This document shows, one piece after another, positions 6,662 to 45,325 of a stretch of DNA of 64,000 nucleotides. The stretch covers positions 62,001 through 126,000 of the forward strand of contig NZ_VJYB01000006.1 of assembly GCF_030400225.1 (NCBI RefSeq), read 5' to 3'. This DNA is from Lactobacillus sp. UCMA15818. Lineage in GTDB: Bacteria > Bacillota > Bacilli > Lactobacillales > Lactobacillaceae. How positions within the stretch are numbered: position 1 is the stretch's first letter; the number at the start of each line of letters is the position of its first letter. Position numbers and translations under genes: made by a program. The notes under the pieces were generated by a model that was not told where the DNA came from, did no database searches, and was given only the letters and a program-made list of their open reading frames with translations.

Positions 6662-7477
6662 TTAAATAAATGCTGGATTTGCAACAACATTAAATGCCGC
6701 AGCTAATTCCTTCAATTGTTCATCAGAGATAGACTGTCTAATCTCTCCGCCTTGTGCCCCAATTTGTGAATAGATTGTTGCAGCTTTTTCAACCGTTTCG
6801 ATCAAGCCAAATGTCTCATCTAAGTCTGAACCTACTCCAAACAACCCATGATGTGGCCACATTACTACACGAAAATCTTGCATTTTACTTGCCGTTGCCT
6901 TGCCAATAGCTGTTGTGCCCGGTGTCATATATGGAATCAAACCTACACCTTCTGGAAAGACTACCAAAGATTCTGCTTGCATCTTCCACAAAAGTCGTGA
7001 GATATGTCCCTCGTTTAAATCTTGTGTGAATGACAATGCAATCACATTTGTTGGATGACAATGCATTACAACTCTATGAGTCTTATCGAATTTTAATCTT
7101 TCAATATGTGTCATCAAATGACTTGGAAATTCTGATGTTGGCTTACCGCCATCTTCAAAGCCCCACAATAAATCTGCCTTTTGGCCATCAGATGTAATCT
7201 GAACCAAGCCTAAGTCAAGTGTTGGTTGATTAATTACATTTCGGAAATACCGTCCTGTTCCAGTAACCAAGAAATATTCCTTTGCTAATGGAGATGCATC
7301 AAAGCCAAGCACAAAAGTTTTTTTAACTTCTCTAACATCAGCAAAATCAGCTAAATCGGTACTATCGATTCTCAATGAAACATTGCCACCATTGCGTTCG
7401 TCCCAGCCATGTACGTAGGACTCATGGGTAACTTCGCATATTTTCTTTACAAATTTTGAATTTACAAATTTAGTCAT
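6662..7477 (-). CDS. rhaD: L-rhamnulose-1-phosphate aldolase
   Basis: The protein is 271 residues, normal for RhaD, a class II zinc aldolase. It splits L-rhamnulose-1-phosphate into dihydroxyacetone phosphate and L-lactaldehyde. Visible marks are the N-terminal GWDERNGGNVSLR motif, the ligand histidines in VVMHCHPTN (about residues 137-141) with a general-base Glu upstream, and the third zinc His in VMWPHHGLFG. It is the last gene of the rhaT-B-M-A-D transcript and is followed by a terminator. Confidence 0.93.
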   Translation of the reverse strand: MTKFVNSKFVKKICEVTHESYVHGWDERNGGNVSLRIDSTDLADFADVREVKKTFVLGFDASPLAKEYFLVTGTGRYFRNVINQPTLDLGLVQITSDGQKADLLWGFEDGGKPTSEFPSHLMTHIERLKFDKTHRVVMHCHPTNVIALSFTQDLNEGHISRLLWKMQAESLVVFPEGVGLIPYMTPGTTAIGKATASKMQDFRVVMWPHHGLFGVGSDLDETFGLIETVEKAATIYSQIGAQGGEIRQSISDEQLKELAAAFNVVANPAFI

Positions 7478-7514
7478 TATACTTTTCTCCCTAGTTTATG
7501 TCTGTTGTTTGCAT

Positions 7515-8780
7515 TTAATTGCGTTTAAATAAAACATCTTTTTCATACTGATGGATATCTTCCAACCAATCAGTCCCAACTGGTGTCTCGTTTTCTAAAC
7601 AGAATTCATCCCAAACTGCACCAAATGGATACGCCTTGAGCTCTTCTGTAACAGCTAAACGTGTTGTAAAGTCATAACTTAACTCAGCTTTTTTCAGTTG
7701 ATCAATTGGTGCCAACATTGCCTGCAATAAGGCCTTTTGCGTTGCACGTGCTCCAATTACCCAAGCAGCCACGCGGTCAATCGTCGCATCAAAGAAATCA
7801 AGCCCAATATTTGTTCGTTCTAATTGGTTGTCTCGTACCAATGAACGTGCAATTCGTATCAATGCATCGTCCATAATCACAACATGATCACTATCCCACC
7901 GAACCGGTCGTGACACATGCAACATCAACCCCTTACCAAATGGTAAGAATGCTGAAAACTTATCTGAAACATCTTCTGTTGGGTGCCAGTGACCTGCATC
8001 AATCGTCCATAACTTATCACGGCTAATTGCGTAATTGTTATAGAAGAGATGTGAACCAACTGTATATGATTCAATTCCAGTCCCAAAGAGTTTCCCTTCA
8101 ACTGCCTCAATAGTATTTTTCTCTTCGTACTTTTTCGCAAAAACTTCATCGAGTGATGCAATTAAACGTTCTCTTGGGCCTTGCTTGTCGATTGGATTAT
8201 CTTTGAAACCATCTGGAATCCAAAAATTATTAACTGATTGTTGCCCTAATTCTTTACCAAAATAATTTGCAATTTCTCGCGACTTCTTACCAACTTCAAT
8301 CCAGTAATCACGAATTTGTTTTTCAGGACTAGCAAGTGTGAAATTATGCTTTACTTTTGGATGAGAGAAGAAGGTTGGGTTCATATCAAGACCAACACCT
8401 TCTTTTTTAGCCCAGTCTACCCAATACTTAAAATCCGCTGGCCCAATTTCATTGAAATCCTTCTTCTGATCAGTTACTGCATATAATGTATGCAACTGGA
8501 CTTTATGTTTACCAGGAATCAAGGTAAGTGCCTTATGCAAATCGGCTGTCAATTCATCTGGTGTCCGTGCAATTCCTGGAAAATCTCCACTGACCCCAAT
8601 TCCCCCTGTTAATTCTTGATCAGGATTTAAGAATCCATGAATATCATCGCCTTGCCAGCAATGCATTGAGAGCTTAACCTTCTTTAATTGTGCAATCACT
8701 TTATCTGTATCAACGCCAATTTCTGCATATCTTTCTTTAGCTGTTTTGTATGCCCTTTCAATATTCTCTGCTTTAACCAT
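7515..8780 (-). CDS. rhaA: L-rhamnose isomerase
   Basis: The protein is 421 residues, matching the 415-425 of RhaA, which interconverts L-rhamnose and L-rhamnulose with two divalent metals in a TIM barrel. Family segments include KLSMHCWQGDDIHGF near the N-terminus, LDMNPTFFSHPK, WIPDGFKD, the metal-ligand stretch TIDAGHWHPTEDVSDK, and SRPVRWDSDHVV near residue 300. GGAGGAG precedes the ATG. It sits between rhaM and rhaD with short gaps, consistent with one transcript. Confidence 0.96.
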   Translation of the reverse strand: MVKAENIERAYKTAKERYAEIGVDTDKVIAQLKKVKLSMHCWQGDDIHGFLNPDQELTGGIGVSGDFPGIARTPDELTADLHKALTLIPGKHKVQLHTLYAVTDQKKDFNEIGPADFKYWVDWAKKEGVGLDMNPTFFSHPKVKHNFTLASPEKQIRDYWIEVGKKSREIANYFGKELGQQSVNNFWIPDGFKDNPIDKQGPRERLIASLDEVFAKKYEEKNTIEAVEGKLFGTGIESYTVGSHLFYNNYAISRDKLWTIDAGHWHPTEDVSDKFSAFLPFGKGLMLHVSRPVRWDSDHVVIMDDALIRIARSLVRDNQLERTNIGLDFFDATIDRVAAWVIGARATQKALLQAMLAPIDQLKKAELSYDFTTRLAVTEELKAYPFGAVWDEFCLENETPVGTDWLEDIHQYEKDVLFKRN

Positions 8781-8794
8781 TTAAAACTCCTCCT

Positions 8795-9112
8795 TTAATC
8801 TAAGTGAAATACTTCGTGTAAGTCTAAAGTTACCGGACTTTTGTCTTCATTAGTATCCATGATTGGTTCCATATATGCCCACCATTTTTTACAATCATCA
8901 GACTGTGCGATAGCGTTATATTTCTCGACATCGTCAACTTCTAGATAAGCAAATAAATTTCCAGTTTCTTTATCAAGGAATATTGAATAATTATGTGCCC
9001 CAGCATCTTTCAAAGCTTCTCGCATTTTTGGAAAAAGATTATTATGTCGTTTTTCATACTCTTCATACATATCACGATAAACATGCATTAACTGTCCCAT
9101 TCTAACTGTCAA
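8795..9112 (-). CDS. rhaM: L-rhamnose mutarotase
   Basis: RhaM interconverts the alpha and beta anomers of L-rhamnose. Family signatures are YEEYEKRHNNLFPKM, DAGAHNYSIFLD and KWWAYMEPIMDTN. The frame reaches an ATG at 9139, but a strong AAAGGGGG site sits 8 bases before a TTG at 9112. That start gives 105 residues, the family norm, so it is preferred. The gene then overlaps the end of rhaB by 11 bases, suggesting translational coupling. Confidence 0.9.
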   Translation of the reverse strand: MTVRMGQLMHVYRDMYEEYEKRHNNLFPKMREALKDAGAHNYSIFLDKETGNLFAYLEVDDVEKYNAIAQSDDCKKWWAYMEPIMDTNEDKSPVTLDLHEVFHLD

Positions 9113-10586
9113 CCAAATTACCCCCTTTATATTTTTCATTCTTCAAAAACTTTTTGTAATCATCTAGGATATTAGAATATTTTTCTCTCTCAGGAACAAA
9201 CTTGTCTATCTTAAATGAATCACTAATTATTTGACGAGCAAGATAAATATTCAAAATATCACCTTTCGTAATCATTTGAACCATAATGTTTCCAATCGCT
9301 GTCGCTTCACTTGGACCTGCATATACGTCAACGCCACTCACCGTTGCTGTCAGTTGATTCATTAAATCTACATTTGAACCACCACCAACGATGTTCAAAC
9401 TATCAATGTGATAGCCCAAAATATCATCAAGAATAGATAATTCATTTGCATAATATAGTGACAGATTTGAATAGACAGCCATTGCGAGTTCTCCCGGTGA
9501 TTCAGGAACCTTCTGTTTAGTTTCACGACAATATGCTTGAAGTTCTGCTATCATATTCTCTGGATTCTGAAAACGAGCAGCATTTATATCTATGAATTGT
9601 TGGAATGGTGGCTCTCTTTTTGCTAAAGCTGCTAAAGCTGCAAAGCTGTACTGATCATTCAACTCTTTTTTTATATTTTGAATGACCCACAATCCCATAA
9701 TGTTTTTCAAAAAACGGTAAGTTCCGTACGCTCCCCATTCATTTGTATAGTTTTGTTCAAAAGCCTTTTCTCCATTTTCTGGAGTATTAAGTTCTGCACC
9801 AATCAGCGACCATGTCCCAGAACTTAAATACGCCCACCGCTGGCCCAGAGCAGGTGTACCAATAACAGCCGAAGCAGTATCATGTGTTGCTACTGTAACT
9901 ACCTCGGTTTGAGGCAAACTATACTTTTTGACTAATTGCTGACTAATATCACCTAGAATCGTTCCAGCTTCTACTAATTTTGGAAATTGAGATTGTTTTA
10001 CATTAACACTTTTCAATAAGTTATTATCAAATAGGCCTTCGCGCAGACTTAGCATCTGTGTTGTTGACGCATTTGTAACTTCAGTAACTGCTTTCCCAGT
10101 TAAAATAAAGCCAATGTAGTCTGGAATCATCATTATCTTATCTGTTTTGGCTAACAATTCTTTGTCCTCTTCAAATAATTGATAAAGTGTATTAAAGTCA
10201 AGAAACTGAATTCCTGTTTTTTGATAAATATACTTTTTTGATAATGATGTCGTTAACCTTTCTATGCTTCCATGAGTTCTATTATCACGATAAGAAATCG
10301 AATCCTGTAATTTGTTTCCCTTTTGGTCAACCAAAACATAATCAACCGCCCAAGTATCAATCCCTAGAACAACTGAATCATATCCAGCTTTTTTAATTTT
10401 TTCTAAGCCAATTAGAATTTCTTCTATTAATTTGTCAATATCCCAACAATCATGTCCTTTATTGTGAACAAAACCATTTTTAAACCGATGAATTTCTCTC
10501 AAGCTTAATTTGTTGTCGACTAGTTTTGAAAGCATTAGTCGACCACTTGAAGCCCCTATATCAACAGCAACATAAGTTTTACTCAT
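9102..10586 (-). CDS. rhaB: Rhamnulokinase
   Basis: The protein is 494 residues, a FGGY-family carbohydrate kinase that phosphorylates L-rhamnulose at O-1. The N-terminal ATPase segment VAVDIGASSGRLML, the sugar-site stretch GIDTWAVDYVL, ATHDTASAVIGTPA, the SSGTWSLIG loop and the C-terminal IVGGGSNVDLMNQLTA phosphate-binding region are all present and typical of RhaB. It lies directly after the transporter gene and overlaps rhaM. Confidence 0.95.
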   Translation of the reverse strand: MSKTYVAVDIGASSGRLMLSKLVDNKLSLREIHRFKNGFVHNKGHDCWDIDKLIEEILIGLEKIKKAGYDSVVLGIDTWAVDYVLVDQKGNKLQDSISYRDNRTHGSIERLTTSLSKKYIYQKTGIQFLDFNTLYQLFEEDKELLAKTDKIMMIPDYIGFILTGKAVTEVTNASTTQMLSLREGLFDNNLLKSVNVKQSQFPKLVEAGTILGDISQQLVKKYSLPQTEVVTVATHDTASAVIGTPALGQRWAYLSSGTWSLIGAELNTPENGEKAFEQNYTNEWGAYGTYRFLKNIMGLWVIQNIKKELNDQYSFAALAALAKREPPFQQFIDINAARFQNPENMIAELQAYCRETKQKVPESPGELAMAVYSNLSLYYANELSILDDILGYHIDSLNIVGGGSNVDLMNQLTATVSGVDVYAGPSEATAIGNIMVQMITKGDILNIYLARQIISDSFKIDKFVPEREKYSNILDDYKKFLKNEKYKGGNLVDS

Positions 10587-10621
10587 AAGTCATGTCACCC
10601 TTATCCCTTCAATTGAAAATT

Positions 10622-11884
10622 TTATTCTTGTTTGTCACCATAACGTTCTTTTGTAATTTGTGATAAAGTTTTACCACGTGTTTTAGGTGTCCATAAGATT
10701 CCAACAATTAACGATACCAGAAGCAAAATAATCATTGCAGTTCCTGCAATTTTAAAACCTAAAGAAGATAAAATAATTGGAAATACAATTGACCATATTC
10801 CTGCTGTCCCACGAACAATGAAGAACATAAATCCTTGCGAACCAGCCCGATACTTAGTAGGGAACAATTCAACAGCCCATAGTGCATACCATGCTTGAGC
10901 TCCAATTCCAGCTGAAATTCCCCAAATGATAACAAACGCCAACAATGCTAACCAACCAAAACCAATATATGTTAGAATTACCCATGAAATCACTGCCATG
11001 CTTGCACCTATGAAGAAGAATGAGCGATGATTAACTTTATCTCCTAAAAGGGCAAAGCCGAAGTATCCAGCAAGGGCTGTGAAAATCCATAATACTGCTT
11101 GTAACATATTTGCTTGCGTATTATTCAATCCACCTACTGTTTCATATACGAATGGCATGAAGAATCCCATCGCACCTGCAACTAAGTTCCAGAATACGTA
11201 AACCCCACATAAGAATAGAATACTTTTAACTGATATCATATTGGCAAAAAGATCACGGTAGGGATGATTCTCAACTGGCGATCCCAATTCTTTTTTCTTT
11301 TGATTGATCCAATCCTGTGATTCTGGTAACTTTTTTTGTAAATTCCATGCAATAAAAGCTACTACTGTCAAGAAAGCAAAAAGTAATCTACTCCCCAATA
11401 GGCCTAGTGGAGCCAATAAGGTACCTGATATAAAAATAATTACTGGTCCCATTGACCATGCAAATTGTGAGATACCGATATTATGAGCCCGATTAGTGTC
11501 ACCTGAGGTTTCCCCAATGTATGTCCACGAAGCAGGAACTCCTGCACCAACTGCGATACCTGTTACTAAAAAGCCTAGTAAAAGCATTGGAAAATTAACT
11601 GAAAAAACGACTATTAATGTTCCTAACATATAAATCAACATGTCATAGGTATAAATCATCTTTCGTCCATACTTATCTGAAAGTCTTCCACCAATAATTG
11701 CACCTAACGCTGACCCAAATGCATTTGCACTTAGAGCCCCCAACAATCCAACATCAAAATCAGATAATCCAAAAGATTTTTGCCATAGTGTTAAACCCGA
11801 TGCACCCGCTACAATTGATCCAGAATCCAGAAAATTGGTTAACGATACAGCCCAAGTTGACCCATTTGAACTTTCTTTTGCCAT
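10622..11884 (-). CDS. MFS sugar transporter, probably for rhamnose
   Basis: The protein is 420 residues with twelve predicted helices and MFS sugar-porter signatures: GGRLSDKYGRKMIY in the loop after helix 2, PESQDW after helix 6, and ELFPTKYRAGSQGF in the second half. The frame extends to 11917, but AAGGGGTGG is spaced for the ATG at 11884, which also gives an MFS-like N-terminus. It is first in the rhamnose operon, directly behind the cre-bearing promoter, so L-rhamnose uptake is the likely role. It is not the RhaT type of Escherichia coli. Confidence 0.85.
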   Translation of the reverse strand: MAKESSNGSTWAVSLTNFLDSGSIVAGASGLTLWQKSFGLSDFDVGLLGALSANAFGSALGAIIGGRLSDKYGRKMIYTYDMLIYMLGTLIVVFSVNFPMLLLGFLVTGIAVGAGVPASWTYIGETSGDTNRAHNIGISQFAWSMGPVIIFISGTLLAPLGLLGSRLLFAFLTVVAFIAWNLQKKLPESQDWINQKKKELGSPVENHPYRDLFANMISVKSILFLCGVYVFWNLVAGAMGFFMPFVYETVGGLNNTQANMLQAVLWIFTALAGYFGFALLGDKVNHRSFFFIGASMAVISWVILTYIGFGWLALLAFVIIWGISAGIGAQAWYALWAVELFPTKYRAGSQGFMFFIVRGTAGIWSIVFPIILSSLGFKIAGTAMIILLLVSLIVGILWTPKTRGKTLSQITKERYGDKQE

Positions 11885-11932
11885 GCTGCCACCCCTTGTC
11901 ATTTTTCGGATATCCATTTTGTATACAAATAG

Positions 11933-15162: not shown

Positions 15163-16026
15163 TTATCTTGCAAATCTTGTTCTACCAAACGCCAGACAGC
15201 CTTTAATTCCTGCATCATTACCGAGTTTTGCCGGAATTATATATTTGTCTACATCTATAATATCGACATAATTATTCATGTCTCTTAAAAAATATTTCCT
15301 AACTTTAGGATACAGTTGTTGCTGACTAGAGACACTTCCACCAAAAATCAAAATATCGGGTGATAATGTTAACGTATAGTTCACACAGGCTTTAGCAATA
15401 TATCTTGCTAATAAATCCCAAACTGGATTATCCTTCTTAATTTCAAAGCCTTCCTTACCAAGGCGTGCTTCAATTGATGGCCCTGAAGCAAGCCCTTCAA
15501 AGCAGCCATCATGATATGGACAAACACCCTTAAAATCAAGATCCTCGCTTTCTTTAGGCAAAAGGATATGCCCTGATTCTAAGTGCGAATCTCCTGAAAA
15601 AATATTTCCATTCTGAATGAACCCTCCGCCGATCCCAGTTCCAATTGTGGAATAGAAAATATTTTTATACCCTTTACCATTACCAAACACATATTCTCCG
15701 TAGGCCGCAATGTTAACATCCGTTGTCAAAATGATTTCAACCTTCAGATATTTTTTGATATACAATACAAGATTGAAATTCTTCCATAATAATTTAGGAG
15801 TGTCTTTAATGCAACCATAGTCATTCTTAAATTTATTAATGACTACTGGTCCAAAAGAACCGATTACTAATCCATCAATTTCTTTATTTTTGAAGAAGTC
15901 TATTACATCATTGAGTGTCTCTTGGGGTCCTCTAGTTGAAAATTTGACACTCTCACGAATTTCTCCTACCGTGTTACCTACAGCGCAAACAAATTTTGTT
16001 CCCCCTGCCTCAATTGCTCCTATCAT
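15163..16026 (-). CDS. ROK-family kinase, fructokinase type
   Basis: The protein is 287 residues. It has the N-terminal phosphate loop EAGGTKFVCAVG, the catalytic-region segment YSTIGTGIGGGF, and the zinc module ESGHILLP...VCPYHDGCFEGLASGPSIE (one His, Cys, His, Cys) typical of fructokinases such as GmuE/ScrK. It likely phosphorylates free fructose or a related ketose. It is the last gene of the PTS operon, 46 bases after the second aldolase, and is followed by a terminator-type repeat. Confidence 0.87.
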   Translation of the reverse strand: MIGAIEAGGTKFVCAVGNTVGEIRESVKFSTRGPQETLNDVIDFFKNKEIDGLVIGSFGPVVINKFKNDYGCIKDTPKLLWKNFNLVLYIKKYLKVEIILTTDVNIAAYGEYVFGNGKGYKNIFYSTIGTGIGGGFIQNGNIFSGDSHLESGHILLPKESEDLDFKGVCPYHDGCFEGLASGPSIEARLGKEGFEIKKDNPVWDLLARYIAKACVNYTLTLSPDILIFGGSVSSQQQLYPKVRKYFLRDMNNYVDIIDVDKYIIPAKLGNDAGIKGCLAFGRTRFAR

Positions 16027-16072
16027 AATTTTCCTTTCTCTAGATAGAATTTATCTAAGTTGGTCACACAGA

Positions 16073-16966
16073 CTATAGATACTCTGCTCGCCACGGATCG
16101 AGGTCTTTATATAGTTCTGCTTTCCCAATTGCATTAAACAACGCATTTTTATGGTGAACAACCTTTTTAGCTTCAACAATACATACTGGGAATAAATTAT
16201 TTGGATCCCAGCCTTCATCACTACTCAATACTTCACGTGCCTTCTTAAAGAATGCATATTTATAATCCGAAGAAATATTGACTTTAGAAATACCAGTCTT
16301 AACAGCTTCAGCAATTTGCTCATCTGGATTTGACGAACCACCATGCAATACTAACGGATTATTAACAACTGCCATTATATCTTTTAAGATATCAATCCGA
16401 ATTTTCGGAGTCACATCTGAAGGATAAATTCCATGCGCTGTCCCAATTCCAATTGCTAATGTATCCACACCTGTTTCTTCAACAAATTTTTTAGCATCTT
16501 CAGGTTGCGTATAAATACCATTTTGTAAATGCTTTTCTATATGATTACCTGTTTGGCCAATCGTTCCTAACTCTCCTTCAACTGATACTCCAACCAAATG
16601 ACACATATCAACCGTTTTTCTAGTAATAGCTACATTTTCTTCCCAAGTGGCTAGTGAACCGTCAATCATTACTGAACTAAAGCCATTATGAATCGCACGA
16701 GCAACATTATTGATAGTATCACCATGGTCTAGGTGTAAAACAAACGGAACCTTGCTGTTCTTGATTCGTTGTAATACATAAGCGAAAAAGTCATCCTTTG
16801 CATATGCCATTTCAGTGGGGTGAACGGCAATAATTGCAGGAGCATTATCAGCTTCACATTGTTCAACTGCTGATTTTAATAATTCAGCGTTTGAGACATT
16901 ATAAGCACCGACTGCAAAGTGATTTTTTTTAGCAACAGCGAGCATCTGATTCATATTTAATAGCAT
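16073..16966 (-). CDS. Class II ketose-bisphosphate aldolase (second copy)
   Basis: The protein is 297 residues. Zinc ligands and phosphate loops of the FBA/GatY/KbaY family are visible: LHLDHGDT (about residue 80), VEGELGTIGQTG, IGTAHGIYP (His about 181) and VLHGGSS (His about 209), then VNISSDYKYAF. It should split a ketohexose-1,6-bisphosphate-like sugar phosphate. It differs clearly from the aldolase encoded just upstream (its C-terminal stretch WDPNNLFP is absent there), so the pair is not a recent duplication. AAGGAGAT precedes the ATG. Confidence 0.88.
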   Translation of the reverse strand: MLLNMNQMLAVAKKNHFAVGAYNVSNAELLKSAVEQCEADNAPAIIAVHPTEMAYAKDDFFAYVLQRIKNSKVPFVLHLDHGDTINNVARAIHNGFSSVMIDGSLATWEENVAITRKTVDMCHLVGVSVEGELGTIGQTGNHIEKHLQNGIYTQPEDAKKFVEETGVDTLAIGIGTAHGIYPSDVTPKIRIDILKDIMAVVNNPLVLHGGSSNPDEQIAEAVKTGISKVNISSDYKYAFFKKAREVLSSDEGWDPNNLFPVCIVEAKKVVHHKNALFNAIGKAELYKDLDPWRAEYL

Positions 16967-16996
16967 AGTTTATATCTCCTTAGTTTTTATAGTTTA

Positions 16997-17857
16997 TTAT
17001 CTTATTGCGGCTTGGTTAGTTGATCCAGAAATTTCGATATAGCTTTGCACCATCTCCTTAGCTGCAAAAATTGTATTTGTCATTAAATCAACATATTCGC
17101 GGTTGCGTTCATTTTCTTGTTGTTCAAAAATCGAATCAGCTTGGGCTTTCATGACATCAGAACCAACATTCACTTTATTGATGCCAAGCGAGATCGCCTT
17201 TTTGATATTTTTAGTGCCACAACCTGATCCTCCATGTAGCACTAAAGGAATATGGGTTGCTTTCTTTATTTTTTCAATAATACTGAAATCAAATTTTGGA
17301 ACAAAATTTTCAGGCATAATTCCATGGCTTGATCCAAACGAGATAGCTAAAGCGGTTACATTTGTTTCTTGAATAAACTTGATAGCTTTTTCAGGATCTG
17401 TATACATATTAGCTTGTGTAAGCTTTTCCCCAGATACCGTCCCCATATTGCCCATTTCTGCTTCTACACTCACCTTGCACATACTTGCAGCTTTCACTAT
17501 TTCTTTAGTTATTTGTACATTTTTACTATAGCCATATTCTGCAGCATCAATCATTACACTTGAAAAGCCTGCAGCGATACTCTTTAGTACATATTCCTTA
17601 GACTTGCCATGGTCCAAATTTATGGCAACATCAACTTTGGCTGTTTCGGCCATTTTAATGACACTTGGTAAAACATATTCTGCCCTAATATGTTTTTGTA
17701 GATGCTCCATTAACAAATCAATTATAATCGGGGCATTTTTTTCTTCCGCAGCAAGAATCGTTGCATACGCACTTTCTAAGTTAAAGCAATTAATTGCCAG
17801 CACCGCATAATCATTCCTATTAGCCTTATCTAACATGCTCTTCATTGATACATACAT
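16997..17857 (-). CDS. Class II ketose-bisphosphate aldolase (first copy)
   Basis: The protein is 286 residues, same family as its neighbour and nearer the tagatose/fructose-bisphosphate aldolases that accompany PTS operons. Visible are INLDHGKSKEYV, VEAEMGNMGTVSGEK, ISFGSSHGIMP, LVLHGGSGCGTKNI and INKVNVGSDV. The second zinc His is in the SSHG motif. It follows EIIC by 17 bases and precedes the second aldolase by 30, so all three are likely made together. The substrate is the phosphorylated product of the PTS, identity unknown. Confidence 0.88.
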   Translation of the reverse strand: MYVSMKSMLDKANRNDYAVLAINCFNLESAYATILAAEEKNAPIIIDLLMEHLQKHIRAEYVLPSVIKMAETAKVDVAINLDHGKSKEYVLKSIAAGFSSVMIDAAEYGYSKNVQITKEIVKAASMCKVSVEAEMGNMGTVSGEKLTQANMYTDPEKAIKFIQETNVTALAISFGSSHGIMPENFVPKFDFSIIEKIKKATHIPLVLHGGSGCGTKNIKKAISLGINKVNVGSDVMKAQADSIFEQQENERNREYVDLMTNTIFAAKEMVQSYIEISGSTNQAAIR

Positions 17858-17874
17858 TTTCAGGCTCCCTTCCG

Positions 17875-18966
17875 TTAACTAATTTTGATATCATCTAAAT
17901 TAATTTCCTCCTCTTCGTCACTTCTCACAGTACCCCCTTGCTCCTCTGGAACCCTTCTTTTCCAAAGAAATAAAATGACTCCCGTAGCTAAAGAACCAAT
18001 TAGTAGTGCTACCAAGAACAGCACTGGTTTATTCATTGCAGGTACAATGAATAGACCACCCGAAGGTACTGGGCTTTCAACTCCCCAGGACATTGACAAG
18101 CCGCCACCAATTGCAGCACCTATTGAACATGAGGCCACCATGCGAATCAAATCAACTGCTGCCAATGGGATAACACCCTCAGTAATCATGACAATTCCCA
18201 TTGGAAATGCAATCTTTATATTGTCTTCTTCTTCTAAGGTATAAATTTTACGCTTGAAGACCCTAGAAAATACCCAAGAAAGTGAAACCCCAAAAGGAGG
18301 AACCATTGAAGCCAAAATTTTGACTGCTTCAGGTTGTTTAACCCCCTGCAATAACAACCCATCTGCAAATAGAGATGCAACTTTATTAACTGGTCCTCCA
18401 AAGTCAAATGCTGCCATCCCTCCTAAAATAGCACCAAATGCGAAACGTGCTGAACCTTGCATACTATTCAAAAACGAAGTTAATGCGTTAGTTGCCCAGA
18501 CTATCGGTTGCCCCACAATGAAGAACATTACTATCCCCATAACTATTGATGCAAGTAATGGAATAATCATCATTGGAACCAAGCCCTCAGCCCATTTTGG
18601 AACTTTTATATACTTAACTAGAAGTAAAACTACCCAACCTGTTAAGAACCCTCCTAACATTCCACCCAGAAACCCAGCACCAATGTTATAAGAAATAATA
18701 CCGCTTAATAAACCTGGTGCAATCCCCGGTCGATCTGCAATGGAATATGCAATGGCCGCTGAAATGACAGGTGCTAACAGTCCCATTCCCCAAACACCTA
18801 AAGTCGTAAATGTTGAAGCAACAGAATAATTGCCTGTAAATTTCGTAATCACTGAACCACCCATTAAGTTACCAATAGCAATCAATAACCCGGAAGCAAC
18901 CACCAGTGGTAACATATACGAGATAGCCGTCATAGCGTGTTTCCTAAGTTGCATTTTTTTTAACAT
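17875..18966 (-). CDS. PTS system EIIC component, fructose family
   Basis: The protein is 363 residues with about nine membrane helices. Family features include the N-terminal RKHAMTAISYMLPLVVASGLL, the glycine-rich NIGAGFLGGMLGGFLTGW, DFGGPVNKVAS and the VPSGGLF segment near residue 310. It forms the sugar channel through the membrane and works with the separate EIIB and EIIA encoded upstream. AGGAGG is 8 bases before the ATG. The C-terminal tail is acidic and cytoplasmic. Confidence 0.92.
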   Translation of the reverse strand: MLKKMQLRKHAMTAISYMLPLVVASGLLIAIGNLMGGSVITKFTGNYSVASTFTTLGVWGMGLLAPVISAAIAYSIADRPGIAPGLLSGIISYNIGAGFLGGMLGGFLTGWVVLLLVKYIKVPKWAEGLVPMMIIPLLASIVMGIVMFFIVGQPIVWATNALTSFLNSMQGSARFAFGAILGGMAAFDFGGPVNKVASLFADGLLLQGVKQPEAVKILASMVPPFGVSLSWVFSRVFKRKIYTLEEEDNIKIAFPMGIVMITEGVIPLAAVDLIRMVASCSIGAAIGGGLSMSWGVESPVPSGGLFIVPAMNKPVLFLVALLIGSLATGVILFLWKRRVPEEQGGTVRSDEEEEINLDDIKIS

Positions 18967-18992
18967 TTTTACCCGCCTCCTATTTGCAATAT

Positions 18993-19298
18993 TTACAACT
19001 TGTCTATAATAGTTTGGAGCAATTTTTTAGGTGCCTTAATTGCAGTGTTCGTCGGCACTTCTACGACTCTTTTACCGGCAAAACGTTCACTCCCTCCAAT
19101 TTTTATATCAATCACCAAGAGAACAAAATCAGCTTCTTTGATTTGTTCCGCTGTCAATTTGTTTTCTGTACCAATCGTACCTTGAGTCTCCATATGAATT
19201 TCATAGCCTAATTCTTGTGCTGCTTTCATAATTTTTTCGCGCGCAATATACGTATGTGCAATCCCAGATGTGCATGCTGCAATCCCAACAATTTTCAT
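18993..19298 (-). CDS. PTS system EIIB component, fructose family
   Basis: The protein is 101 residues. The phosphocysteine loop IAACTSGIAHTYIARE places the active Cys at residue 9, followed by HMETQGTIGTENKLT, both typical of fructose-type EIIB. It accepts phosphate from the EIIA protein and passes it to the sugar bound in EIIC. It sits four bases after the EIIA gene and has a perfect GGAGGT site. Confidence 0.94.
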   Translation of the reverse strand: MKIVGIAACTSGIAHTYIAREKIMKAAQELGYEIHMETQGTIGTENKLTAEQIKEADFVLLVIDIKIGGSERFAGKRVVEVPTNTAIKAPKKLLQTIIDKL

Positions 19299-19301
19299 AA
19301 C

Positions 19302-19787
19302 TTATACCTCCTTGGTTTTTCTATTTAGTAACTTAATTAATTCTTCCTTATCTTTAATTTCATGAAGTTTTGTAATAAAATTATCATCTGCTAATAAAAT
19401 TGCTACTTTTTGTAATAAGCGGATATGCAGTGTATTAGCATCAGTATCTTTCACCGCAAATAAAATAATTACACTTACCAGTTCATCATCCAAAGACTCC
19501 CACTCTATACCATGCTGGCTAATGCCGATTGCTAAAGAAGTGTTCTTAACAGCTTGGGATTTCCCATGCGGAATTGCAATTCCTTGCCCCAAACCAGTAA
19601 TACCTTCTGACTCCCGAAGCACCACATCATCAATAAAGGCTTGACGATCCGTAACATCTCCTTTAATAACTAATAATTCAGTTAATTCTTCAATGGCCTC
19701 TTTCTTTGTATCCGCTCTCAGATCAACTGAAATTAATTCTGTTGTAATAACATCAGAGATATTAAAATCCACATTTTCATTTTTCAT
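19302..19787 (-). CDS. PTS system EIIA component, fructose/mannitol family
   Basis: The protein is 161 residues with an EIIA type-2 domain over nearly its whole length. The active His is in IAIPHGKSQAV (about residue 74), preceded by RESEGITGLGQG. It takes phosphate from HPr and passes it to EIIB. Its ATG overlaps the regulator's stop (ATGA), so the two are translationally coupled. Confidence 0.93.
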   Translation of the reverse strand: MKNENVDFNISDVITTELISVDLRADTKKEAIEELTELLVIKGDVTDRQAFIDDVVLRESEGITGLGQGIAIPHGKSQAVKNTSLAIGISQHGIEWESLDDELVSVIILFAVKDTDANTLHIRLLQKVAILLADDNFITKLHEIKDKEELIKLLNRKTKEV

Positions 19788-21265
19788 TTATTTTTCAGCT
19801 CCCTAATTAATCTCTCTACATTTTTTTGATCATTTTTATTAAACATAGCACTTACCAATATTGACGGCTTACCAACAACTTCGTTAAGAACAATGGAAGA
19901 AATTATTAAGTCAATTTGCTTATCATAATTTTCGGAGTTTTTCCGATATTGTCTCAATGAAACCACATCTTCTATTTTTAAATTTGGAAAAGCACGATGA
20001 ACTTTTACCTTTAAAAGTTCTGAAGTTCCCACTCCACTTGCACACATGATTAAAACACATAATGATTTAATCTCTTGTTCAACAGCTTTAGCAAAGTAAA
20101 GAGTAATAAATCCAATCTCATCGTCAGATAAAGTTTCTCCAAAATATTGAATGAAAATCTTATTGACAGCGATTTTAACAATCTCAAAAATTTCAGAATA
20201 TTCATTTTTGATATCCGGCAATAATCTATTACTAACAAAAATTTTATTTTTTATACGATTTAACAATGGCTTTATATGATTAATTAATTCTATTTTTAAC
20301 TTAGTAGTGCTGATACTGCCCTTATAATTATCCAAAACTGTCTCAATAATTTGATGAGTTATCTTTTCGACCTCATCCGAATAATTAGGTTCATTCTCGG
20401 AGTTGGAAAAAAGGCGGGATGAAATTAAATACTGCAGTAAATAATATTTTTCTTGATTTGGTAATTCATGGCCTAAATAACTTGAAAAATTATTTATTAA
20501 TTTACTAGAAATTTGGTACAAATAACCATTCGCTTCAATCGTATTTTTTTGACCATTGATATCAAAATCACTATCATCAGAAGAAACCTCAATTCCACTG
20601 CGATATCGATTTATTAAAATACATAAGTGGGAAAAAATATTAATATTGTACGGATAGGGAATTATAGAATTTAACTGTTCTTCAATTGAATGGAATTGTT
20701 CAACCACAAATCTCATGTCATATTTGTTTAATAGTGAAAAATCTTTGTTCAGCAACTCCTCATCAATATCATTTATTCGAGGCACATATCGTAAGAGTGC
20801 TCTCCGAATTGCCAATTCATTACCCATTACTCCCACAAAACGATTTTGTCGAATTATGCTGATTTTATATTTACTCAACTGTGACTTAATAAAAGTTAAA
20901 TCACCATTCATAACCGCTTCACTCACATAAAATTTTTCAAAAAGATAATCCACACTTATTTTTCTTGGTGATTTCATTAACAGCTTCAACAAAATTTCAT
21001 TGCGTCGTTCAACTGGAGAAAAATCACTAATTTGTTTCGTATTAGATTTTTCTTCAAGATACTTATCATAATCTAGACGATATCCCTTTCCTTTTTCGGA
21101 AATAATCAATTTGTTATTATCACAATCTCTGTTAATTTTATCTACATACCGTATTATGGTTCTTTTAGAAATTTTAAGCTTTTTAGCAATGGTTCCAGAA
21201 GACAAGTAATTATCTTGTTGACTTAGAAATTCAAGCAGGGATTGTTTCCTTTCCTCAAAAGTCAT
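19784..21265 (-). CDS. PRD-containing PTS operon regulator (BglG/MtlR-like activator)
   Basis: The protein is 493 residues. The N-terminus has an HTH_11 domain (LSSGTIAKKLKISKRTIIRYVDKI), then a second winged-helix/Mga-like part and two PRD regions with histidines around FSHLCILINRYR and LINHIKPLLNRI. The C-terminus is an EIIB-Bgl-like domain with the cysteine loop IMCASGVGTSE. There is no EIIA domain, unlike full MtlR. It is first in the PTS operon behind a cre site, so it is probably an autoregulated activator controlled by phosphorylation through the PTS. Confidence 0.88.
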   Translation of the reverse strand: MTFEERKQSLLEFLSQQDNYLSSGTIAKKLKISKRTIIRYVDKINRDCDNNKLIISEKGKGYRLDYDKYLEEKSNTKQISDFSPVERRNEILLKLLMKSPRKISVDYLFEKFYVSEAVMNGDLTFIKSQLSKYKISIIRQNRFVGVMGNELAIRRALLRYVPRINDIDEELLNKDFSLLNKYDMRFVVEQFHSIEEQLNSIIPYPYNINIFSHLCILINRYRSGIEVSSDDSDFDINGQKNTIEANGYLYQISSKLINNFSSYLGHELPNQEKYYLLQYLISSRLFSNSENEPNYSDEVEKITHQIIETVLDNYKGSISTTKLKIELINHIKPLLNRIKNKIFVSNRLLPDIKNEYSEIFEIVKIAVNKIFIQYFGETLSDDEIGFITLYFAKAVEQEIKSLCVLIMCASGVGTSELLKVKVHRAFPNLKIEDVVSLRQYRKNSENYDKQIDLIISSIVLNEVVGKPSILVSAMFNKNDQKNVERLIRELKNK

Positions 21266-33469: not shown

Positions 33470-34780
33470 TTAAAGTTTAAAACTATCCACTTGGAATTTC
33501 AGAACATCTGCAATATCTTCAATCTCTCTGACATTCTTTTCAAATTCCTTAACATTCAACTGAAGCTCCTCAATATTTGCAGTTACTTCTTGTGTTCCTG
33601 CCGATGTATCAGAAATGGCTGAAGAAATATTCTCCACTGAATGACCAACCATGTTTTTCTCTTCAATTACTGCTGATACATTTTTTTCGATTTTCTGAAT
33701 ACTATCAACAAATTTCTTGACTATGACTGAGATCTGTTCAGTTGAATTAATTGCTTGACCAATATAATTTGTTTGCTGTTCTCCACTCTCATATGAAATA
33801 TTTAAAGAAGAGGCCATATGCTCTGATTTATTTCTGATCAGTGTGATTATCTCTCTAATATTCTTTGTTGACTCGCTACTTTGTTCTGCAAGACTTCTGA
33901 CCTCTTCAGCTACAATCGCAAAGCCCCGTCCTGCTTCCCCTGCTCTTGCTGCTTCAATTGAGGCATTGAGTGCTAGGAGGTTTGTCTGTTCAGAAATATC
34001 CGTGATCAATGCAACAATATTGCCAATACTCTGAATATCCTTATTCATTTCATCCATTTCTGTAACTAATTGTGCTTGTGCCTTGCGCTCTTCTTCCCAG
34101 TTACTTGATACTTGAACCATCATGGTTGAGTTGCTCGAATTCGTCTCCTTTGATTCTTCAACATACCCATTCATTAATTCAATCTCACTGTATATTTTCT
34201 CTATTTTGTTAGAGAGTTCTTGCATGTCATTCGATGTCTGTTCGGCTTCTGCAGCCTGTGAACCTGAAGCTTCCGAAATGTTTCCCATTGTTGTTTTGAC
34301 ACCATCAACCGAACTATTTGCATCCTCAAGAACCTTAACAAGATTTTGTGCCATTCCACTCATTTTTGTACTTTCACTTTTCATTCCAATGATTACGGCC
34401 ATAAAAGTGTTCGCAAAGCTGTGCACATCATCTTTTATTTTAGAAATCGCTGGATCGTCTTTTTTTGATGGTGTCAGATCATCTAGGCTGGAGAAATCTC
34501 CTGAAACAACCTGATTGATTTTCTGATGGACATATTCAAGCTCTCTCTTATAAGGGTTTGCTGCAATATAATTCAAGGCAACACACAGAATCAGGTGCAA
34601 CACCAATACAACTACTGCAAAAATAAAAAATTTAGTTCTGATCGCAGTATCGGTGCTCCCACTAACCAGCATTAAATAGGCAATAATTAATACAAGCAAG
34701 GTGAAAATAATTGGCTTAAATGCACCTATTTTCAACTTTACGGTTCTCTTAGGGACTTTCTTTAAACTTTTCTTGGTCAT
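33470..34780 (-). CDS. Methyl-accepting chemotaxis protein without a large sensor domain
   Basis: The protein is 436 residues. Two membrane helices (about 20-40 and 50-72) are joined by a loop of only about ten residues, so there is no extracytoplasmic ligand domain. A short HAMP-like linker leads to a full signalling domain with the hairpin tip ([29 protein letters not shown]). Such receptors sense internal or membrane cues. A sigma-D-type promoter lies directly upstream, inside the operon. Confidence 0.9.
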
Positions 34781-34864
34781 TACTTAATACCCCTTCCGAC
34801 ATGAACAACATATATTTAGATTCGAGCAAGATTAGTTAAAAACTTACGCAACTCTATACTTTTC

Positions 34865-34890
34865 ATATCGGAAATTTATTGAAATTATTA
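34865..34890 (-). promoter_or_regulatory. Sigma-D-type promoter for the internal MCP gene
   Basis: TCCGATAT (34865-34872, minus strand) differs by one base from GCCGATAT, with TTAA 14 bases upstream. This is the same -35 variant and spacing as at flgM. It lies in the 118-bp gap between the FtsE-like gene and the MCP gene. Confidence 0.55.
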
Positions 34891-34898
34891 AGACTTCA

Positions 34899-35612
34899 TT
34901 ACCAGATATACACGTCTTTATTATCAGGATATCTAGTGTATCCACCGCCTTGTTCGTCTCTAATCAATTCCCCACTGCTTAATTCGAGTACCCTTTCGCG
35001 CACCGTATTTACCATAGTACTATCATGCGTTGCCATAATGACTGTTGTCCCCATACTATTGATCTTAAAAAAAAGCTTCATTATTTCTAATGCAGCTTTT
35101 GAATCCAAGTTTGCTGTTGGTTCATCAGCCAGAACAATCGCTGGGTAATTGACAATTGCTCTAGCGATTGCTACTCTCTTTTGCTGACCAATTGATAATT
35201 CGTTAATTTTTCTATCACTCTTGTTGAGCATACCCACAACATCCAGGACATCATTTGTTCTCACCATTACCTCATTGTCATTAGCATCGCTCACAGCTGC
35301 AACACACACTGCAACATTCTCAAAGACTGTGCGTTTGGATAAGAACAAGTCATTTTGCATTACAATCCCCAGCTGTCTTCTTAAATGATAGAGCTGCTTA
35401 TGATTGATTCGGTTAACAAAAGTATTTCCTATCTTAATACTTCCAGAAGTTTGCTCTTCTTCACGATACAAAAGCTTCAGCAAGGTTGATTTCCCTGCTC
35501 CACTAGCACCAATTACATAGACAAATTCACCCTGCTTAATTGAAAAGTTAATATTTTGTAAAGCATGAATCTTCCCCTTATATATCTTTGAAACTTTTCT
35601 CGCTTCTATCAA
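34899..35612 (-). CDS. FtsE-like ABC ATPase inside the flagellar operon
   Basis: The protein is 237 residues. It has FtsE hallmarks rather than those of a nutrient ABC protein: VIGASGAGKSTLLKLLYREE (Walker A and the FtsE-typical tail), HLRRQLGIVMQND, RTVFENVAVC, ADEPTANLDS and TTVIMATHDSTMVN, then GELIRDEQGGGY. The signature motif is LSIGQ instead of LSGGQ. No FtsX-like permease is encoded in the window. A GTG at 35624 is too close to AGAGGTG, while the TTG at 35612 has 8-base spacing and yields the FtsE start MIEARKVSKIY. It follows flgG directly. Probably a second, specialised FtsE; its role is unknown. Confidence 0.85.
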   Translation of the reverse strand: MIEARKVSKIYKGKIHALQNINFSIKQGEFVYVIGASGAGKSTLLKLLYREEEQTSGSIKIGNTFVNRINHKQLYHLRRQLGIVMQNDLFLSKRTVFENVAVCVAAVSDANDNEVMVRTNDVLDVVGMLNKSDRKINELSIGQQKRVAIARAIVNYPAIVLADEPTANLDSKAALEIMKLFFKINSMGTTVIMATHDSTMVNTVRERVLELSSGELIRDEQGGGYTRYPDNKDVYIW

Positions 35613-35635
35613 TTGATGTCTCACCTCTTACAATA

Positions 35636-36403
35636 TTAATCGGCTAAGCGGTTAATTACCTCAAACATATCATCCGTTGACTGAAGTGCTTTGGCATTCA
35701 TCTGATATGCTCTTTGGGTTGCAATCATGTCCGTCATCGAGCTTGCTAAATCAACAGTTGAAGTTTCCAAATACCCTTGCTTGACACTTGCATTTGTCAT
35801 CACCTGCAATTGATTCTCATTCGTAACAGTATAATTATTATTGCCAACACTCACTAAATCTTCATTATTTTGCGGTAAATACATTCTTAGTTTTCCCACC
35901 GAAGTGCTGTTTCCATTGTTCACAATACTTATACTGCCATCGCTAGCAACACTCAAATCACCCTTGGGCCAATTCGTTTCAGGCACAGTTGCATCAACAG
36001 CCACTTTATTCCCACTTGCGTTCACCAACTGTCCAGTGCTATCGCGTTTAAAGCTACCATCACGTGTCAGCAATAATTCACCATTTTGCCCGTATACCCC
36101 AAAGAAACCTTGCCCTTGTATCGCAAAATCAGTTGCACTCCCAGTCTGTTGCAAGCTCCCTTGCGTGAAGTTAACTGATTCACCATTGACTGCTACTCCA
36201 GTATTTAAACCAAGATTTGTTCCAGATATTAGATTTGCTTCTTGCGTTGTTGTCTGATTATTGACTAACTCTTGAAAAGTCGTGTCCCTATTCTTATAGC
36301 CAACTGTATCTGAATTTGCAATATTATTTGCAATGTTGTCCATATTATTTTGTAAGCCATTCATCCCAGACTTATTAATCGATAAAATACCCGAAATATT
36401 CAT
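35636..36403 (-). CDS. flgG: Flagellar distal rod/hook-basal body protein FlgG
   Basis: The protein is 255 residues. The N-terminal SGMNGLQNNMDNIANNIANSDTVGYKNRDTTFQE contains the rod motif ANxxTxGYK, and the C-terminus (VDLASSMTDMIATQRAYQMNAKAL) is the matching D0 helix. It corresponds to FlhP/FlgG of Bacillus, forming the rod through the cell wall. It lies between flgF and the FtsE-like gene. Confidence 0.9.
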   Translation of the reverse strand: MNISGILSINKSGMNGLQNNMDNIANNIANSDTVGYKNRDTTFQELVNNQTTTQEANLISGTNLGLNTGVAVNGESVNFTQGSLQQTGSATDFAIQGQGFFGVYGQNGELLLTRDGSFKRDSTGQLVNASGNKVAVDATVPETNWPKGDLSVASDGSISIVNNGNSTSVGKLRMYLPQNNEDLVSVGNNNYTVTNENQLQVMTNASVKQGYLETSTVDLASSMTDMIATQRAYQMNAKALQSTDDMFEVINRLAD

Positions 36404-36415
36404 CTAAATCAACCT

Positions 36416-37120
36416 CTATGCCTTCCCTAAACTATTGACTGCCTTATCTAGCGTTTCATTGGTTGAACTCAAAACCTTTTGATTAGCTTCAAACTCTCTA
36501 CCTGTTTGCATTAACGTTACCATTTCATCTGACATCGAAACATTCGACTGCTCCAAGTAACCTTGCATCACATTAGGATTCGTATCAACTTGCACATTTT
36601 GATTAGTCGTATAATAGCCGTTCCCTGCGTCCGTTAACTGCTGTTCATTAGCAATGCTTGCTATCCTAAAAGACGGATCATCACTTGCACTAACCGCCTG
36701 TCCATTCGCTCCCACAACTTGATAGCCTTCTTGCGTTGTATATTGATTTTGATTATTAAGCTTGAAATTTCCATTCCTTGTATATGCAAGTGAACCATCA
36801 TTCATTCTAACTGTAAAATATCCATTGCTATTAATCGCAAAGTCGGTCGTTCTCCCAGTCTCTTTCATTGTGCCTTTGCTACTATCAATATAAGAACCAT
36901 CAATAGCATTACCAAATGTAAATCCACCAATGTTTTGTCTTTCAGAAACTGTTGCGCCTCCTTGGTGATTTTCAAATTGCACCTCTTTTAATGTTGATTG
37001 GAATAGCTGCTTTGCCTGATACCCTGTTGTATTGACATTAGCGATATTTCCACTAGTATTTTCTTGCCTTTTGAGTAAAACATCTAGACTTTGCTCTATC
37101 GTATCTAACCCTCGTATCAT
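36416..37120 (-). CDS. flgF: Flagellar rod protein FlgF/FlhO-like
   Basis: The protein is 234 residues. It begins MIRGLDTIEQSLDVLLKRQE, then the rod motif ANVNTTGYQAK, and ends with SDEMVTLMQTGREFEANQKVL. Paired with flgG as flhO-flhP are in Bacillus. Its ATG overlaps the sigma-factor stop codon (ATGA), so it is translated in step with it. The F/G assignment within the pair is by order and length. Confidence 0.87.
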   Translation of the reverse strand: MIRGLDTIEQSLDVLLKRQENTSGNIANVNTTGYQAKQLFQSTLKEVQFENHQGGATVSERQNIGGFTFGNAIDGSYIDSSKGTMKETGRTTDFAINSNGYFTVRMNDGSLAYTRNGNFKLNNQNQYTTQEGYQVVGANGQAVSASDDPSFRIASIANEQQLTDAGNGYYTTNQNVQVDTNPNVMQGYLEQSNVSMSDEMVTLMQTGREFEANQKVLSSTNETLDKAVNSLGKA

Positions 37121-37830
37121 GACAATTCATCCTCCATCGATAATTTTAGCTTTGCAATTACTTTCCCATGAATCTGCGAAACGCGCGCAATTGAAATATC
37201 TAAAATTGCAGCAATCTCCTTTAAAGTTGCTTCCTCCTTGTAGTACAAGCTCAAGATTAGTTGCTCACGCTCATTTAGCTTTCTTATACATCTTGTAAGA
37301 GCCATTTCACGTTCTTCTCCAATTAACTTTTGTTCAGCATTAGTTCCACTTTTGTCAGGTATAATATCTCCTAGCGAGATTCCACCTTCTCCTTCTGTAG
37401 GGAAGATCGTTCCTTCAAGAGAAATACTAGCCAAATAATGAATGTTTTCATATATCTCATTCAATTGTGTAATGGATATTCCCATTTTTTCACAGATTTC
37501 ACTGTCAGAGACTTCCCTTTTGTGATCCTGTTCGAGAACCTGTTTTGCCTTGTAAAAATCATTAATCGCAACCATCTTATATCTTGAGATTCTTGAATGT
37601 TTCCGAACTTCGTCAATAATTGCGCCCCTGATTCTGATTGCCGCATAGCTCTCAAAAGGAACTTTCTTCGTAGAATCAAACTTGTGTAAAGCATCGATCA
37701 AACCGATCACACCAATATTATAATAATCGCTATATTCATACTCAGTACTTTTAATCGGAACTCTTTTAGCAACTCTTTCAACTAAAGGAAGATATTTCAA
37801 GACTTCATCTTCAGTGCTAGTTTCATACAT
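37117..37830 (-). CDS. Flagellar RNA polymerase sigma factor (SigD/FliA)
   Basis: The protein is 237 residues, a sigma-70 group 3 factor with region 2 (YSDYYNIGVIGLIDALHKFD, FESYAAIRIRGAIIDEVRK), region 3 and region 4 (LNEREQLILSLYYKEEATLKEIAAILDISIARVSQIH). The reading frame extends to a TTG at 37854, but AGGGAGGA lies inside that extension and points to the ATG at 37830. It should drive the GCCGATAT promoters found at motA, flgM and the MCP genes, and is held back by FlgM. Confidence 0.94.
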   Translation of the reverse strand: MYETSTEDEVLKYLPLVERVAKRVPIKSTEYEYSDYYNIGVIGLIDALHKFDSTKKVPFESYAAIRIRGAIIDEVRKHSRISRYKMVAINDFYKAKQVLEQDHKREVSDSEICEKMGISITQLNEIYENIHYLASISLEGTIFPTEGEGGISLGDIIPDKSGTNAEQKLIGEEREMALTRCIRKLNEREQLILSLYYKEEATLKEIAAILDISIARVSQIHGKVIAKLKLSMEDELS

Positions 37831-44956: not shown

Positions 44957-45325
44957 TTATTTTACAAATTTTGTACTGTCTATGTTTGTAACTGTATTTA
45001 TCTCATTGACATTCATTGCAGTAATAATCGTTCTATTTTGAACATTTGCTATTAACCCCATATCTTTATATAACAGCAACGAGTCCTTGCTGCCTTTTTC
45101 ATCCAGTTCGTTCATAGCCTGCCCAATATGGGAAAGATCACTATTTTGCAGATCCAAATTACGTGCACTCAACCTTTGACGTGCATGCTTTGAAATCTTC
45201 ACTTGTTCCTGTTTATCTGCAAGTATTTTTGAAAAGTCTTCATTATTTTTACTGGAATTATTTACGTGAACTTCGTTATTTATCCCCTTGGAACTATTAC
45301 TAATTCCATTAATTTGTTGTATCAT
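44957..45325 (-). CDS. TIGR02530-type flagellar operon protein
   Basis: The protein is 122 residues with the family core FSKILADKQEQVKISKHARQRLSARN, DLSHIGQAMNELDEKGSKDSL and the closing LIANVQNRTIITAMN. Found just before flgE in Gram-positive operons; proposed to be a hook-related chaperone or regulator but not settled. It overlaps the flgD end by 17 bases. Confidence 0.85.
   Translation of the reverse strand: MIQQINGISNSSKGINNEVHVNNSSKNNEDFSKILADKQEQVKISKHARQRLSARNLDLQNSDLSHIGQAMNELDEKGSKDSLLLYKDMGLIANVQNRTIITAMNVNEINTVTNIDSTKFVK

Follow-up and report, generated by a model that had tools for sequence, protein, structure and literature searches.

An FtsE-like ATPase gene kept behind flgG in the Lactobacillales

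The flagellar operon of Lactobacillus sp. UCMA15818 almost certainly contains a fixed paralogue of the division ATPase FtsE, encoded directly behind the distal rod gene flgG (hereafter EXT). The gene lies in a stretch of 64,000 nucleotides that was analysed as a whole (the window), the minus strand of which carries a flagellar and chemotaxis cluster, and the positions of EXT, its motifs and its neighbours are collected in Table 1. In phylogenetic trees EXT groups with FtsE, in genome surveys it keeps its place behind flgG in most of the flagellated Lactobacillales examined, and in the branch of the window the surface corresponding to the FtsX-docking groove of FtsE has been rebuilt.

Table 1. 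Features of the EXT locus, in window coordinates
Feature	Position	Strand	Basis or remark
FtsE-paralogue ATPase gene (EXT)	34899..35612	-	TTG start, 237 aa; homology, tree, model
Probable ribosome-binding site of EXT, AGAGGTGA, serving the TTG start	35621..35628	-	8 nt spacing; read from sequence
Walker A GASGAGKST of EXT	35484..35510	-	sequence, alignment
LSIGQ signature of EXT, replacing LSGGE/Q	35184..35198	-	alignment
C-terminal tail of EXT TRYPDNKDVYIW	34902..34937	-	absent from FtsE; predicted flexible
flgG-type distal rod protein, constant upstream neighbour of EXT	35636..36403	-	Pfam; locus survey
flgF-type rod protein	36416..37120	-	Pfam
Chemoreceptor (MCP) with short transmembrane hairpin, next gene downstream of EXT	33470..34780	-	Pfam; not tied to EXT

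The EXT gene and its surroundings

The top NCBIfam match of EXT is FtsE (TIGR02673), with a score of 239.2 bits that lies under the curated cut-off of 264.85, a cut-off passed by several EXT relatives of families f2, f5 and f7 (for example, those of genomes G473 and G543). The Pfam domain of EXT is ABC_tran, the PDB sequences matching it at E ≤ 1e-40 are FtsE in 12 of 12 cases, and the structure closest to the EXT model is pneumococcal FtsE (6z4w, TM 0.92). The single-chain model has a mean pLDDT of 91, falling to 60 and 56 in the final two blocks (residues 221–237). The earlier note, made from the letters of the window alone, had described FtsE marks together with an altered signature, and the translation indeed contains KLLYREE, LSIGQ and GELIRDEQGGGY. 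Specifically, Walker A, the Q-loop, Walker B and the H-loop are intact, and the third signature residue alone is non-canonical.

A mechanical list of open reading frames placed the EXT frame at 34899–35624, with a GTG start. The TTG at 35612, which the earlier note had used, appears from the sequence to be the better start, since AGAGGTGA is positioned 8 nt upstream of it and homologues start there, whereas the GTG at 35624 overlaps AGAGGTGA. With this start, EXT begins 23 bases behind the end of flgG at 35636, the distance given earlier.

The statement that no FtsX is encoded nearby also holds: the sole FtsX_ECD match of the genome is on a different contig, adjoining the true ftsE, so that the genome does have a separate ftsEX pair. 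This true ftsE is 45% identical to EXT and stands beside ftsX, behind a gene that we take to be prfB. A Pfam scan of 70 proteins of the window likewise gave no match to a peptidoglycan hydrolase family, in agreement with the earlier description. Wall hydrolases do exist in the genus, because L. hordei, according to a part of the text of PMC7555045, releases two FlgJ-annotated and two NlpC/P60 proteins, whose locus tags do not fall within its motility operon. EXT shares 83–88% identity with loci that carry the names L. mali and L. cacaonum, and the genome is Liquorilactobacillus-like. A promoter and terminator scan of 34600–37200 found promoters at chance level and no terminator. Carriage of EXT on plasmids was considered and set aside, the search at E ≤ 1e-55 returning merely two distant FtsE matches.

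Several other features of the window were recorded. Rhamnose genes (isomerase, mutarotase, kinase, aldolase and transporter) at 6662–11917 adjoin the flagellar genes, and rhamnose genes are likewise beside flagellar genes in L. mali, as described in an excerpt of PMC3393694. A PTS and aldolase set is located at 15163–21265, and a 122-residue protein with no Pfam match is encoded at 44957–45325, between the flgE-type and flgD-type genes. Pfam also identifies a HigB-like toxin paired with an HTH protein at 352–947 and a Phd/YefM-type antitoxin gene at 1260–1532.

Distribution and descent of EXT

We surveyed drawn genomes of the family and the order with the window FlgG protein as query (E ≤ 1e-20), and EXT was additionally sought across the genus. 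EXT lies just behind flgG, on the same strand, in 68 of the 75 flgG-bearing Lactobacillales genomes (one copy being broken), so that the gene is indeed present in other relatives with flagellar genes; its absence from all motile relatives would have refuted the earlier note. The gap between flgG and EXT in the 68 loci ranges from 6 to 299 nt, with a median of 21.5 (starts chosen by script), and the position is kept across six family codes. In the genus, EXT adjoins flgG in 14 of 14 genomes. In the family, flgG was found in 24 of 397 genomes, comprising the 14 of the genus, six of g23 and four of g20, and EXT is present in all six g23 genomes and in none of the four g20 genomes. In the order, flgG was found in 54 of 395 genomes, 51 of them new, and EXT in 48 of these 51, the exceptions being G397 (g41) and G493 and G514 (both g75).

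The genus g20 is probably Periweissella, because a part of the text of PMC10745875 reports motility genes in four Periweissella type strains, of which one is motile and three are not. EXT is not strictly needed, since g20 has flagellar genes without it and G397, G493 and G514 carry FtsX and flgG without it; should g20 indeed be Periweissella, cells devoid of EXT, and of FtsX and PcsB as well, are able to form a flagellum.

Outside the Lactobacillales, EXT was behind flgG in none of the 28 best-scoring loci of other Bacilli (44 non-Lactobacillales genomes with matches; about nine of the 28 loci are hook rather than rod genes) and in none of the 29 best-scoring loci of the wider phylum (173 non-Lactobacillales genomes with matches). 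At least 1.4 kb was available behind flgG in 55 of these 57 outside loci, the other two offering 153 bases (L255) and 481 bases (L211), and one locus, L268, has a weak match of 22% on the opposite strand. Each of the 18 flagellated non-Lactobacillales Bacilli tested has a single FtsE at E ≤ 1e-72.

Downstream of EXT the arrangement varies. The ten loci that were read, eight of them with EXT, hold no second FtsX-like permease behind EXT; that place is taken by ordinary chemoreceptor genes or by unrelated ones, and in L105 (4527–5486, between EXT and the chemoreceptor gene) by an insertion-sequence transposase that is IS30-like by appearance. A link between EXT and the chemoreceptor was examined and rejected: the two g20 loci read, which have no EXT, carry the same hairpin-type chemoreceptor in the same place, and in some f5 and f7 genomes (L125, L123 and L140) unrelated genes lie behind EXT while EXT still follows flgG. 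Two individual copies depart from the rest, with a frameshift breaking EXT in L081 (about 2278–2990) and an altered C-terminus in L125 (3077–3820).

To place EXT relative to true FtsE, two trees were built. The more careful one, built from 77 proteins (32 of the 68 EXT, 23 of the 43 FtsE rows of Lactobacillales, 18 FtsE of other Bacilli and four ATPases of the window's own genome), recovers EXT as a single clade (100/96) within the FtsE of Bacilli, with the bootstrap not fully settled, and puts it beside the FtsE of families f3 and f9 (98/91), while the four related own-genome ATPases fall outside the group of FtsE and EXT (100/100). The position next to f3 and f9 FtsE is odd, given that EXT also occurs in f2, f5 and f7. 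The other, made quickly from 118 rows, one of them mislabelled, and rooted on other ATPases, gathers all FtsE in one clade (98) with EXT outside it and leaves four EXT groups unjoined, again setting EXT with FtsE against the other ATPases. The two trees thus conflict on where EXT stands relative to FtsE, but the grouping of EXT with FtsE is common to both. Because both trees place EXT with FtsE, and not among nutrient ABC ATPases, a placement that would have refuted the earlier note, we infer that EXT is a duplicate of FtsE, probably an old one, kept in the flagellar operon.

The rates of change agree with a retained gene. Of 17 pairs tried for dN/dS, three gave no value; nine pairs of intact EXT gave 0.045–0.081 and three FtsE pairs 0.033–0.047. 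Judged by these ratios, EXT is under purifying selection and is evolving faster than FtsE.

Docking groove, catalytic motifs and tail

In pneumococcal FtsE, regions 71–79, 86–96 and 101–115 hold the FtsX coupling helix (regions R2–R4 in the accessible part of PMC7468199). A peptide of this helix bound pneumococcal FtsE in that study with a Kd of about 82 nM, measured by microscale thermophoresis. We defined 95 FtsE-invariant sites (at least 95% in 60 FtsE rows), 12 of which are in these groove regions, and compared their retention in EXT. In EXT of f2, f5 and f7 (27 rows), groove sites are kept at 0.85 and sites elsewhere at 0.83. In the window's branch, by contrast, the groove has diverged, with 0.31 in the groove versus 0.74 elsewhere for f1 and f3 (27 rows; permutation p 0.0000, 20,000 permutations) and 0.47 versus 0.78 for f9 (nine rows; p 0.0065), p-values that are indicative only, because the rows are related. 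Three EXT rows of g56 show no groove-specific loss (0.58 versus 0.57). The EXT of the window itself retains four of the 12 invariant groove residues, whereas the FtsE of the same genome retains all 12.

The replacements in the groove are themselves conserved among the 27 rows of f1 and f3, where P77Y occurs in 27, K91L in 22, L92F in 24 and V108A in 24. Furthermore, E144Q, Q146K and N198D are found in 27 of 27 and G168A in 26 of 27, at sites that in ABC proteins lie around the ATP sandwich. On the side of FtsX, the docking helix EIxIMRLVGA retains its key residues, as known from pneumococcus, in the loci that the search pattern matched, which belong to f1, f3, f5 and f9; the pattern did not catch the f2 and f7 loci. 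The four flagellated g20 genomes without FtsX and PcsB also have no EXT, and in the window's lineage the groove of EXT is rebuilt whereas the docking helix of FtsX is kept; FtsX is therefore probably the ancestral partner, and the EXT of the window probably serves a different membrane partner, one of the flagellum. The rebuilt groove may still bind FtsX.

The ATPase motifs distinguish EXT from FtsE as well. GPSGAGKST, LSGGEQQ and MATHN are present in all 43 FtsE rows (41 genomes, two of them represented twice), and EXT is variable at each. The Walker A lysine, the Q-loop glutamine, the signature S and G, the Walker B DE and the H-loop histidine are invariant in 63 of the 68 EXT rows, the alignment of these 63 omitting five odd rows. 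In three g56 rows, L088, L099 and L109, the tail is kept but the signature and the histidine of the H-loop are gone. Of two pairs involving these rows, one gave a dN/dS of 0.115 and the other 0.079, the dS of the latter being high at 3.1; these three copies look like a pseudo-ATPase form under purifying selection. Since they have lost the motifs and yet remain constrained, ATPase activity is evidently not always needed.

The typical EXT has a C-terminal extension that closes with an acidic residue and with others that are for the most part hydrophobic or aromatic. A strict pattern for this tail is matched by 50 of 68 EXT rows and by none of the 43 FtsE rows; of the 18 EXT rows outside the pattern, 15 are close variants, and L081, L123 and L125 are not.

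Membrane partner and possible function

We determined the co-occurrence of EXT with FtsX in 60 genomes with the curated cut-off, covering 52 of the 68 EXT-bearing genomes. FtsX is present once over the cut-off in all 52, and three further genomes, of g41 and g75, have FtsX and no EXT. None of the four flagellated g20 genomes (G032, G068, G098 and G147), all without EXT, has FtsX over the cut-off, and FtsE over the cut-off is absent from both g20 genomes tested. Among the genomes tested for the PcsB coiled-coil, it was found in 25 of 25 with FtsX and in 0 of 5 without. The last of the 60 genomes, G066, belongs to the family but has no flgG match, and it has neither FtsX nor a match to the PcsB coiled-coil. 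This pattern fits a requirement of EXT for the FtsEX-PcsB system, with the joint absence of EXT and FtsX counting as one event, because g20 is one genus.

EXT shares with the FtsE of FtsEX (structures 6z4w, 6z63, 8idb and others) the fold, Walker A and B, the Q-loop, the H-loop and the length of the ATPase core, and differs in its place in the flagellar operon, the absence of an adjacent FtsX, the LSIGQ signature, the rebuilt groove, the extra tail and a score below the TIGR02673 cut-off. MacB, LolD and BceA, type VII ABC ATPases that drive membrane partners by mechanotransmission, are of the same ATPase class as EXT. EXT may be, though we favour this only tentatively, a flagellum-dedicated FtsE paralogue with an FtsE-type, ATP-driven docking role, whose partner was ancestrally FtsX and in the window's branch is another flagellar membrane protein. 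An EXT dimer of FtsE type would close on ATP and move its membrane partner, while the tail would tether EXT to some part of the flagellum. Ancestrally, this membrane partner would probably have been the single FtsX of the cell with a PcsB-type hydrolase, a partnership by which wall opening could be summoned to rods as they grow. Across f1, f3 and f9, the branch of the window, the groove has changed, and in f1 and f3 so have the surroundings of the ATP sandwich, which suggests that EXT there is probably kept apart from FtsE and FtsX and acts on a different membrane protein, most likely one of the flagellum. More speculative, and rather doubtful as a whole, is a scheme in which tail-tethered EXT homodimers power a membrane partner at the basal body and so time the passage of the rod through the thick wall, first with FtsX-PcsB and then, in Lactobacillaceae and allies, with a different flagellar membrane protein.

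The proposal of the earlier note, an ATPase that couples rod or stator assembly to local wall opening, in the manner of an FtsX-type system, is plausible and partly supported in that the g20 genomes without FtsX and PcsB are also without EXT; as an account of the window's own lineage it is weakened by the rebuilt groove opposite a conserved FtsX helix. Its strongest version, in which EXT shares the single FtsX in all lineages, including that of the window, and powers the opening of the wall around the rod by a PcsB-type hydrolase, we regard as unlikely. The one FtsX in each EXT-bearing genome tested, its absence from g20, the parallel pattern of PcsB and the FtsE-like groove of f2, f5 and f7 EXT speak for it, but a groove with so few FtsE residues in the window, facing a docking helix with its key residues, is hard to reconcile with it, as are replacements as conserved as P77Y and V108A. 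That EXT acts instead as a decoy of FtsE, pairing with FtsE or FtsX without driving and thereby restraining septal hydrolysis during flagellum making, is very unlikely. The constrained g56 form with lost ATPase motifs would suit a decoy, as would the fact that no EXT was seen in those genomes where the test for FtsX came out negative; the catalytic residues are nevertheless kept in nearly all EXT rows, and the f1 and f3 switches around the ATP sandwich look like insulation from FtsE.

Two further explanations dispense with FtsX. FlhF and FlhG are P-loop NTPases, of the SRP-GTPase and MinD type, that set flagellar number and place in other Bacillota. FlhF is over the cut-off in none of the 42 Lactobacillales and in 9 of 9 other flagellated Bacilli tested, and none is over the cut-off (TIGR03499) in the window's genome; EXT might therefore stand in for FlhF, perhaps for FlhG, and regulate flagellar number or place independently of FtsX. 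We consider this replacement quite unlikely: both kinds of protein are nucleotide-driven and tied to the flagellum, but EXT is an ABC ATPase (ABC_tran) of another class, the g20, g41 and g75 genomes without EXT are likewise without FlhF over the cut-off, and a loss and a gain in one lineage may coincide. Finally, an ordinary ABC gene or a redundant FtsE gene standing there by chance is highly improbable. ABC ATPases are certainly plentiful, with 79 matches to EXT in the genome, but a position so widely kept, a separate clade, purifying selection and a true ftsEX pair elsewhere argue against chance.

No published description of an flgG-adjacent FtsE copy surfaced in our literature searches. The parts considered of PMC3393694, PMC10745875, PMC12688256, PMC6004923, PMC7555045, PMC7468199 and PMC10694151 do not mention the gene, and a term search of a portion of PMC4802830 gave no match for it.

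Taken together, the preferred reading of EXT as a flagellum-dedicated FtsE paralogue points to an ATP-driven step, so far unstudied, in the assembly or the working of the flagellum. To our knowledge, how the rod passes through the thick Gram-positive wall is poorly understood. If the reading is correct, a dedicated ATPase for this passage or for a neighbouring step would have been kept across much of the order, and a division protein would have been recruited into motility, with a switch of partner still visible in its sequence.
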